Positions 40,334-42,838 of a stretch of DNA of 56,697 nt are shown here, in pieces. The notes below the pieces were generated by a model. The model saw only the letters and a program-made list of their open reading frames with translations, did not search any database and was not told where the DNA came from. A program made the position numbers and the translations under genes. Location of the stretch: positions 1-56,697 of the forward strand of contig JAKQEQ010000134.1 of NCBI GenBank assembly GCA_029556545.1, read 5' to 3'. This stretch comes from Candidatus Hydrogenedentota bacterium (lineage in GTDB: Bacteria; Hydrogenedentota; Hydrogenedentia; Hydrogenedentales; JAGMZX01). Numbering within the stretch: position 1 is the stretch's first letter; each line of letters opens with the position of its first letter.

Positions 40334-40351
40334 TAGATATTACTAGATATT
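40334..40351. promoter_or_regulatory. operator candidate, two TAGATATT direct repeats
   Basis: TAGATATT occurs at 40334-40341 and 40344-40351, spaced 10 nt (one helical turn), and ends 10 nt before the -35 of the promoter at 40362. The surrounding 130 nt are strongly AT-rich compared with the rest of the window. This is where an activator or nucleoid protein could bind. Confidence 0.4.
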
Positions 40352-40361
40352 GTGGGCAATC

Positions 40362-40390
40362 TTGACTTTAGCTTCAATATTTAGTATGCT
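40362..40390 (+). promoter_or_regulatory. sigma-70-like promoter for the P-loop/coiled-coil/MshEN gene
   Basis: TTGACT (40362-40367), exactly 17 nt, TATGCT (40385-40390). The start of transcription would be near 40397. The GTG at 40412 is then only about 15 nt inside the transcript and has no clear ribosome-binding site; an ATG at 40466 is an alternative start. Confidence 0.65.
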
Positions 40391-40411
40391 GCGGTTATTA
40401 GTTGACAACCG

Positions 40412-42838
40412 GTGGAGATTGGCGCACCTTTGTGCGTCTGCAAAATTCCGCCACAAATACCCGGGATGCGAGGGTCCTGGCGTCCGACGCCTGGAAGGTT
40501 TGCAGTACCTCATCTCGCACCCGAGGGGAGCGCGCATACGTTGCCCCGGAAAGGCACAGGATTCCGAGTAACGGCGCACAACCGCGAGGCGGTCGCGGTC
40601 TGCAAGGAAATTGCCTCGCTGTCCCGCCGGTCCTGGGAACCCGTTGTGCTCGTGGGCAATCGGGGTGTCGGCAAGACCTATCTCCTGAGTTGTCTCGCGC
40701 GGTACCTGCGCGAGGCCAGCGTCGGCATGGCCGTCGCGTGCCTGTCGCCGGTACACTTTCCGAGCGACGTGCGCGCGCTGATCGCGGACCCCGGCCCGAT
40801 TGCTCCGGATCGACCGGCCGCTCTGCTGGTGGACGCGCTCGAGCGGTTTAACGGGGAGGCGGAACTGCTTGAGGCGGTGGTACGAGTGTTCGTCGAACGC
40901 GGCCACGCAGTGGTCGCGACCTCGACCCTGCCGCCCGCCCACCTCGATAATCTGACGCCAGGGTTGCGGGTCCTCTTGGCGCGGGGCCGGACGGTAGCCA
41001 TGTCCGCGCCCGACCGCGTATGCGATCCTTCGGCGGGCGCGCTCACGCCCGCGACGCTCTCGTCGGAAGTCGCCCGGCTGCACCGACTAATCGCGGCCAT
41101 GCGCGGCCGCGCGGCGGCGGCGGAAGTCGCGGAGCGGGAGTTGTGCCGCGCGCTCGAGCAGGAACGCGAGATTTCGGCGGCATTGGCGCGGGCCTACGAA
41201 ACGGTCCGGGCCGAGCGGCGCGTCGAACGCCGGCAAGCGCGGGCGCTCTACACGGAACTCCTGCAATTGCGGGAGACACTCGGCCGCTATAGCACGATCG
41301 CGATGGCCCTACCGGACCTGCAAGGGCCGGATTTCTCCCTATCAGGAATCGCACTTACCGCCGCGGAACGGGTGCGTGTCATGGAGGCGGCGCGAGACTC
41401 CGCCGTCGACCGCGCCACACGCATTGCCCGGGAGGCGCGCGCGGAAAATACCCGGCAACAGGAGGAGATCGACATTCTCTTGGCGCGGTTGTGGGACCTC
41501 GCCGCCGACTTGGCGGCGACGCGCCGCCAACTGGACGCCTCGGAGCGGTTGCGTACCCTGCAAATGCGCCAGTTTGACGCACTACTCGAGCGTCGTCGCG
41601 TCGCCGAGGCGGAGGCCGTCGCAGCCCACGCCCTCGCCCGGGACTTCGAGGTGGCGCGCGATCGCGCGTGGGAGCGGCACGCCGCACTGTGCAAGGCCTA
41701 TGAAGAACTGCGGTACAGGGCCCAGTCTCCAGCCGAACCGCGCCGGTATGCCGCCGAAACGGCTGTGGTCATCGACCGCCTTGTCGCGGACAAGACGCGC
41801 GCGGACGCGCTCGCGGAGCAGCTCGAACGGCGGCTCCGGGCTTCGGAAGAGGAACTGGTGCGCGCGCGCCTCGAGATGGACGCGCTGGTCGGGAGCAACG
41901 AGCGGGTGTTGGCGCGTGCATCGGCCATGCAGGAGCGTGTAAACGCGATCCTCCAGGAACATGCCCGCCAGTCGCGCGAAATCGAGGCGCTGCACGCGGC
42001 GCGGGCGCGCGCGGAAGCGCACGCGACCGAGACAAGGGCCTTGGTCCAGCGACTGCGCCGCGACCTGCGGAAGGTTGCGCGGCAACGCGATGCGCTCCTC
42101 GCGCAATTGGACCGCGCCCTGGCGCAGCGCGAGGCGCTGCGGGGCGAATTGCGGCGACTGCATCGCGAGCATGTCGCGCTCGAAACGCGCTGGGACGACG
42201 CGCGGCGCGACGCGACGGCGCTGCGCGAGGAACTGCGCGCCGCCGCCGAAACGCAGCAGCAATTACGAGAAGGGATGCTGGATCTCTTCGCGGTAATCGA
42301 GTCTCTGCAACGTCAACTCGACATTCTGCATCTGCACGTGGGCGACACGCCTCCACAAGAAGTGCGTCGCTCTTTCGGGGCCCATGCTCCCAGTCCGCGG
42401 GGACGCAAGCGCACTCGGTGGCTCGGAGAGGTCCTGACTTCGATGGGCGCGGTTACCCGGCAGCAACTGGATAAGGCGTTGCGCGCCCAAGCCAAGCAAC
42501 GGATTCAGCGCCTCGGGGAGGTGCTGATCGAGCAGGGGGTCGTTAGCGAGGATCGCGTGCTACAGGCCGTCGCACGACAGCAGGGCCTTCCCTTCCTGAG
42601 GATTCTCCCGGAGAACGTCAAAATGCCGGCGGCCACGCTCGTGCCGGAGTCCGCCGCGCGGGAGTATCGCTGTATCCCGCTTCACGCGACGGACCGCGAG
42701 CTTGTCGTCGCCATGGCCGACCCGCTGGACCGGCGGGCAATCGCGGCCATCGCGCAGCATGCGCACCGGCGGGTGCGCGTGGTGGCGTCGCCGCGGACGG
42801 ATATCGAGCAAGCGTGGGCTTGGCATTACGCCGCATAA
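40412..42838 (+). CDS. DnaA-like P-loop + long coiled coil + MshEN (GspE N-terminal) domain protein
   Basis: An 808-aa protein with three parts. Residues about 51-210: an AAA-like P-loop module with GNRGVGKT (82-89), a Walker-B-like ALLVDALERF (137-146) and, further on, VVATSTLPPAHLDNLTPGLR, the spacing and sequence style of the DnaA/Hda core. Residues about 212-665: an almost unbroken Arg/Glu/Ala-rich coiled coil. Residues 669-808: the N-terminal domain of GspE/MshE ATPases, with two repeats (RWLGEVLTSMGAVTRQQLDK and QRLGEVLIEQGVVSEDRVLQ) that fit the c-di-GMP-binding MshEN motif, then REYRCIPLHATDRELVVAMA. The GspE ATPase itself is absent. I know of no characterised protein with this order of domains. 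A role in cell-pole positioning, secretion or signalling is a guess. The start codon (GTG at 40412 or ATG at 40466) is uncertain. Confidence 0.83.
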   Translation: MEIGAPLCVCKIPPQIPGMRGSWRPTPGRFAVPHLAPEGSAHTLPRKGTGFRVTAHNREAVAVCKEIASLSRRSWEPVVLVGNRGVGKTYLLSCLARYLREASVGMAVACLSPVHFPSDVRALIADPGPIAPDRPAALLVDALERFNGEAELLEAVVRVFVERGHAVVATSTLPPAHLDNLTPGLRVLLARGRTVAMSAPDRVCDPSAGALTPATLSSEVARLHRLIAAMRGRAAAAEVAERELCRALEQEREISAALARAYETVRAERRVERRQARALYTELLQLRETLGRYSTIAMALPDLQGPDFSLSGIALTAAERVRVMEAARDSAVDRATRIAREARAENTRQQEEIDILLARLWDLAADLAATRRQLDASERLRTLQMRQFDALLERRRVAEAEAVAAHALARDFEVARDRAWERHAALCKAYEELRYRAQSPAEPRRYAAETAVVIDRLVADKTRADALAEQLERRLRASEEELVRARLEMDALVGSNERVLARASAMQERVNAILQEHARQSREIEALHAARARAEAHATETRALVQRLRRDLRKVARQRDALLAQLDRALAQREALRGELRRLHREHVALETRWDDARRDATALREELRAAAETQQQLREGMLDLFAVIESLQRQLDILHLHVGDTPPQEVRRSFGAHAPSPRGRKRTRWLGEVLTSMGAVTRQQLDKALRAQAKQRIQRLGEVLIEQGVVSEDRVLQAVARQQGLPFLRILPENVKMPAATLVPESAAREYRCIPLHATDRELVVAMADPLDRRAIAAIAQHAHRRVRVVASPRTDIEQAWAWHYAA

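Follow-up and report, generated by a model that had tools for sequence, protein, structure and literature searches.

A Hydrogenedentota protein uniting a DnaA-like P-loop head, a coiled coil and a C-terminal MshEN domain: a putative c-di-GMP-responsive scaffold

MshEN domains fused to many other domains are already known (PMC5013675), and their C-terminal placement is established in NfrB of E. coli (PMC8669469). Contacts such as L54/L58 matter for MshE (PMC5013675), while position 1 of the c-di-GMP motif has been extended to R/K/L with large hydrophobics favoured, and the PilF variant K167L, changed at this position, binds c-di-GMP at 2 nM compared with 6 nM for the wild type (PMC11731258). 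The c-di-GMP outputs of uncultured phyla are almost unknown, and the protein described here adds a receptor architecture: of its 808 residues, 51-201 form a DnaA-family P-loop and 669-807 a C-terminal MshEN domain, with a mostly helical stretch of about 435 residues between them. The preliminary description had proposed this order and called it undescribed; Pfam, NCBIfam and AlphaFold (AF2) models with Foldseek matches at both ends confirm the order, and no such protein was encountered in the literature searched. That search, which covered few subscription papers, returned neither a DnaA plus MshEN protein nor an MshEN/coiled-coil protein of this type. What appears to be new is the combination of DnaA head, coil and MshEN, whereas MshEN fusions, including those with C-terminal placement, are known already.

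The gene (protein P0001) is located in the window, the whole 56,697-nucleotide stretch analysed from an uncultured Candidatus Hydrogenedentota bacterium, and runs on the forward strand from a GTG start at 40412 to a stop at 42838, the same frame (40412-42838) as first reported. An ATG at 40466 is an alternative and could be the true start; residues 1-50 (40412-40561, forward strand), a Pro/Gly-rich tail, are poorly conserved (28-34% identity, dN 0.64-0.76). A same-genus genome carries a full-length orthologue that is 58% identical, and comparison with it indicates weak constraint on residues 1-50 and 641-668. The dN/dS values against this orthologue are 0.26 for the P-loop, 0.38 for the coil and 0.22 for MshEN, so the frame is a conserved protein under purifying selection and not a chance ORF. 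A sigma70-type promoter (TTGACT-17-TATGCT; 40362-40390, forward strand) ends about 21 bases 5' of the GTG and is conserved in the orthologue together with an adjoining upstream ATTGTGGG(C/T)AAT element; this region (40340-40391) shows much higher conservation between the two species than the DNA on either side of it. The element is a possible operator, to judge from its conservation, and a search for its regulon gave no second exact match of TTGTGGGNAATNTTGAC anywhere in the genome. With a conserved promoter and an adjoining element that occurs in exact form nowhere else in the genome, the gene probably forms a transcription unit by itself. The neighbouring genes encode ArgS, a PALP-family enzyme (threonine synthase-like), an ABC transporter and a ClC channel, and the same-genus orthologue sits in a different gene neighbourhood; a single-copy gene without conserved neighbours offers no guilt by association.

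The head (residues 51-201; 40562-41014, forward strand) was assigned to the DnaA family by Pfam, by AF2/Foldseek and by phylogeny, and comprises the base subdomain only, with no lid. Pfam Bac_DnaA matches residues 52-194 (E=6.9e-9, 36.5 bits; curated cut-off 23). The AF2 models were built from the window and relative sequences only and were compared with the PDB by Foldseek; that of residues 45-205 (pLDDT 87.5) has DnaA domain III as its nearest fold (8bv3, E=9e-9), in agreement with the DnaA similarity proposed earlier for the N-terminus. PDB sequence matches likewise lead to DnaA at the N-terminus, and to the N-terminal domains of PilF, PilB and MshE at the C-terminus. The head was aligned with the genome's own DnaA, a canonical 477-aa protein encoded elsewhere, and three other DnaAs, and motifs were counted over 35 family members. 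The Walker A motif GNRGVGKT (residues 82-89; 40655-40678, forward strand) was correctly recognized at the outset, with G87, K88 and T/S89 found in 35/35 members. The proposed Walker-B-like ALLVDALERF (residues 137-146; 40820-40849, forward strand) is degenerate: the Mg aspartate D141 is as invariant across the 35 members as G87 and K88, whereas the second acid is replaced by A142. This second position is not conserved in the P-loop family (E/Q/D/N/A) and reads A, A or Q in the three dual (P-loop plus MshEN) members. The head thus retains an AAA+ base fold with Walker A and Mg aspartate.

In the same DnaA alignment the sensor-1 Asp is absent, contrary to the sensor-type segment in DnaA/Hda spacing that had been reported. 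Also absent are the box VII arginine finger, replaced by L188, the lid with sensor II (missing in the family counts as well), part of the initiator-specific region and, from the protein as a whole, the DNA-binding domain IV helix-turn-helix. The term 'DnaA-type switch' was therefore overstated, as the residues for hydrolysis, oligomerisation and DNA binding are lost. The head is DnaA-derived but, because these features are missing, would not be expected to form DnaA-like filaments, hydrolyse ATP in the manner of DnaA or bind origin DNA, an expectation that follows from established DnaA biochemistry.

The helical/coiled-coil region (residues 206-640; 41027-42331, forward strand), which is low in Pro/Gly and had been described as unbroken, falls into three segments according to its Pro/Gly breaks and heptad periodicity. 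It is interrupted at residues 291-312 (41282-41347, forward strand) by G291-P301-G305-P306-G312 and at residues 440-443 (41729-41740, forward strand) by P440/P443. The hydrophobic periodicity is 3.52 for residues 206-300, 3.53 for 300-400 and 3.50 for 500-640, and the periodicity analysis gave no heptad signal in residues 400-500. A similarity to the SMC-like TIGR02169 (2.7e-4) is of low significance and generic for coiled coils.

The MshEN domain (residues 669-807; 42416-42832, forward strand) is complete, as previously claimed, both N and C subdomains being recognized by Pfam, NCBIfam, PDB sequence matches and AF2/Foldseek. Pfam MshEN matches residues 725-807 (E=5.3e-18, above the curated cut-off) and NCBIfam c-di-GMP_motif NF053729 matches residues 671-723 (1.2e-13, 50.6 bits; cut-off 38), while the strongest NCBIfam match of the C-terminus is NfrB. 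The AF2 model of residues 657-808 (pLDDT 92.7) has the N four-helix bundle and C subdomain of the MshEN fold; its nearest PDB fold is c-di-GMP-bound MshE (5htl, E=1.3e-10), and the top-scoring folds are c-di-GMP-bound MshE and PilF, with the non-binding XpsE lower. The T2SSE catalytic domain PF00437 was unmatched in the protein by Pfam, and the frame stops one residue past MshEN. This placement had been considered odd on the ground that MshEN normally precedes an ATPase, a view at variance with the other established fusions and with the C-terminal MshEN domains common on coils in this phylum.

Motif I (residues 670-693, WLGEVLTSMGAVTRQQLDKALRAQ; 42419-42490, forward strand) keeps the Gly, Leu and Gln contacts with Trp in place of R9, and motif II (residues 700-723, RLGEVLIEQGVVSEDRVLQAVARQ; 42509-42580, forward strand) has Val at L54 and L58 with the others kept, the two being separated by a 6-residue spacer. 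Together they represent the pair of RLGxx..G..L...L..Q motifs typical of MshEN receptors. The 14 contact positions used in V. cholerae MshE (PMC5013675) read W-L-G-G-L-L-Q / R-L-G-G-V-V-Q in the alignment, and 11 of the 14 are identical to MshE, so the nucleotide-contact residues are present apart from R9W and the conservative changes L54V and L58V. The two RLGEVL repeats of the preliminary description are accordingly exact in the second case and W670-LGEVL in the first. Of the 39 coiled-coil/MshEN relatives, only 19 carry Arg at position 1, and 38 have V or I at position 54. By analogy with PilF K167L, which binds as tightly or tighter, Trp at motif I position 1 would be compatible with stacking on c-di-GMP. 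The ligand is presumably made by the host, as 11 GGDEF proteins (diguanylate cyclases) are encoded in the genome, and the MshEN end very probably binds it, judging from the motifs and the model.

Relatives were obtained from a P-loop alignment search, a single-protein scan of the genome contigs having returned none. The three-part architecture was identified in 3/68 Hydrogenedentota genomes, namely the window genome, a congener and a genome of another family (G054) with a 524-aa version. Nearly all of the named sequences close to the head come from Candidatus Hydrogenedentota MAGs. Transfer out of the phylum was considered for records labelled 'Rhodothermaeota' and 'uncultured bacterium' and rejected as naming differences, because their contig coordinates equal those of the Hydrogenedentota genomes G028 and G030. 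The P-loop/coiled-coil family that includes the window head forms a clade apart from DnaA on a 100/100 branch. Since the P-loop trees unite the three dual members in a single clade (support 88/95 and 96/88), with which the MshEN tree is compatible (support 41/92), the three-part protein would most simply have arisen by one fusion of two phylum-wide modules. One source comprises P-loop/coiled-coil proteins without MshEN, which are widespread in the phylum and represented in the same genome by a 484-aa paralogue (G000:C183); the other comprises coiled-coil proteins ending in MshEN, which are common across the phylum (320-1271 aa among the examples read). As the latter are normal in Hydrogenedentota, it is the head, and not the C-terminal MshEN on a coil, that is the unusual part.

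Across the phylum a two-gene unit was observed in which a DnaA-like P-loop/coil protein (~295-1576 aa) is followed by an HD_3/YfbR-like phosphohydrolase, whose gene often overlaps the first or starts within a few bases of it; the unit of the window genome contains the above paralogue (L037 8235-10290, forward strand). The HD_3/YfbR-like gene was not found at loci L036 and L039, nor among the neighbours of the window gene. The same genome encodes several coiled-coil proteins ending in MshEN (320, 402, 469 and 1271 aa; two lie in tandem) at L053 4579-8394, L052 6889-9145 and L118 4727-6136 (all forward strand), and no conserved neighbours of coiled-coil/MshEN genes were found. Two further MshEN effectors without an ATPase have MshEN N-terminal to domains that by eye look HDOD-type (L115 6672-8159, forward strand) and cyclic-nucleotide-binding-like (L116 6001-7350, reverse strand).

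A DnaA-domain search of the genome revealed a second DnaA plus MshEN protein (G000:C100, 787 aa; L051 9655-12018, equal to G000:C100:139657-142017, reverse strand), with an N-terminal MshEN (residues 137-222, 2.5e-17), a linker and DnaA domain III (residues 550-707, 5e-56). Its TIGR00362 match reaches position 338/437 and thus lacks domain IV, and alignment with DnaAs indicates that it retains the DD Walker B and both the SRF and the lid arginines. This MshEN-DnaA occurs across Hydrogenedentota, is distinct from canonical DnaA and immediately precedes pilB on the same strand in 20/20 loci examined (L051, L204-L221 and L223), including that of the window genome; pilT, pilS and pilR then follow in most loci where contig and stretch permit. 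A search of 149 Planctomycetota genomes did not show it: the best matches listed there cover the DnaA part only (query ~550-780) and sit in ordinary DnaA-sized frames. Because its DnaA part is separated from the window head by a 100/100 branch, the two DnaA/MshEN pairings look independent in origin. Derivation of P0001 from the pilus protein was also considered and is supported by neither the P-loop nor the MshEN tree. The coupling of the window protein to a pilus or secretion machine, as first suggested, finds no pilus gene near it or its same-genus orthologue, and the idea of a DnaA-type switch acting with c-di-GMP at a pilus machine fits MshEN-DnaA better.

We give about an even chance to the window protein being a c-di-GMP-responsive cytoplasmic coiled-coil scaffold with a nucleotide-binding head. 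The MshEN end would with good confidence bind c-di-GMP, with Trp670 taking the place of MshE Arg9 in stacking on guanine 1, and the coil would plausibly dimerise or oligomerise the protein into a long rod. The head may bind ATP/ADP and so offer a docking surface that depends on nucleotide; lacking the features for hydrolysis, oligomerisation and DNA binding, it would not be expected to build DnaA-like filaments or remodel DNA. Binding of c-di-GMP at one end might conceivably make the rod hold or release the head's putative partner, or hold it elsewhere. The phylum's coiled-coil/MshEN module would have been added once to the P-loop/coiled-coil family, with the HD-phosphohydrolase partner gene perhaps lost from the neighbourhood upon that fusion. 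Only three known members, a single-copy gene without conserved neighbours, the missing heptad signal in residues 400-500 and the L54V and L58V changes, conservative but at contacts of a kind that matters in MshE, count against this reading. The head might also be an inert relic, which would make the protein one more of the coiled-coil/MshEN proteins common in the phylum; the loss of catalytic residues is in line with this, yet the head is as constrained as MshEN (0.26 compared with 0.22), retains the Walker A G-K-T and D141 and has a confidently predicted fold, so that a non-functional head is distinctly unlikely.

Regulation of type IV pili, in which the protein, once loaded with c-di-GMP, would dock on PilB or the pilus MshEN-DnaA, would suit a genome with 17 T2SSE-type motor ATPase matches and 15 MshEN domains, and the phylum's pilus operon, with its fixed DnaA/MshEN pairing, shows that modules of the two kinds come together at this machine. 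It seems unlikely nevertheless, given the gene neighbourhoods, a P-loop tied to MshEN-DnaA by general DnaA homology only, an MshEN domain that groups elsewhere in the tree, and a pilus protein that is phylum-wide where the window protein has its three genomes. A broader version, that DnaA-family ATPases were recruited twice into Hydrogenedentota c-di-GMP signalling, as the pilus MshEN-DnaA and as a rod with a degenerate head, and that at the pilus the window protein serves the MshEN-DnaA ATPase as a scaffold or decoy gated by c-di-GMP, is decidedly improbable. There is precedent for a c-di-GMP-binding nucleoid protein in CdbA of Myxococcus (PMC7156744), and the DnaA/Hda fold and SMC-like coil similarity could point to an effector whose head contacts DnaA or DNA under c-di-GMP control; this is very unlikely, considering that domain IV, initiator-specific motif, arginine finger and lid are lacking and that the coil similarity is the generic one.

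Beyond the scaffold proposed for P0001, the pilus operon of one phylum contains a protein in which a DnaA-family ATPase is joined to a c-di-GMP receptor domain. This MshEN-DnaA gives a specific example, amenable to testing, of an ATPase of the replication-initiator type put to use in surface machinery. It shares with the window protein the union of DnaA-family ATPase and MshEN, and differs in its opposite order, its complete domain III with lid and arginine finger, and its position upstream of pilB. Within Hydrogenedentota the head belongs to the P-loop/coiled-coil family, whose members apart from the three dual ones lack MshEN and are followed by the HD_3/YfbR-like gene in 24/34 loci, the window protein being opposite on both counts. 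DnaA domain III and Hda, the best PDB matches, have the fold and Walker A in common with the head; the window protein differs in having no ISM, no arginine finger, no second Walker-B acid, no lid/sensor II and no domain IV, and DnaA is phylogenetically far from it. The MshEN domain resembles V. cholerae MshE and T. thermophilus PilF GSPII-B (nearest PDB entries 5htl and 8pdk) in fold, 24+24-residue motifs and Gly/Leu/Gln contacts; unlike in these proteins, there is no T2SSE motor ATPase, motif I starts with Trp, the spacer has 6 residues, and MshEN ends a coiled-coil protein. E. coli NfrB likewise carries a C-terminal MshEN without a motor ATPase, but its effector is a membrane glycosyltransferase, in place of which the window protein has a P-loop and a coil.
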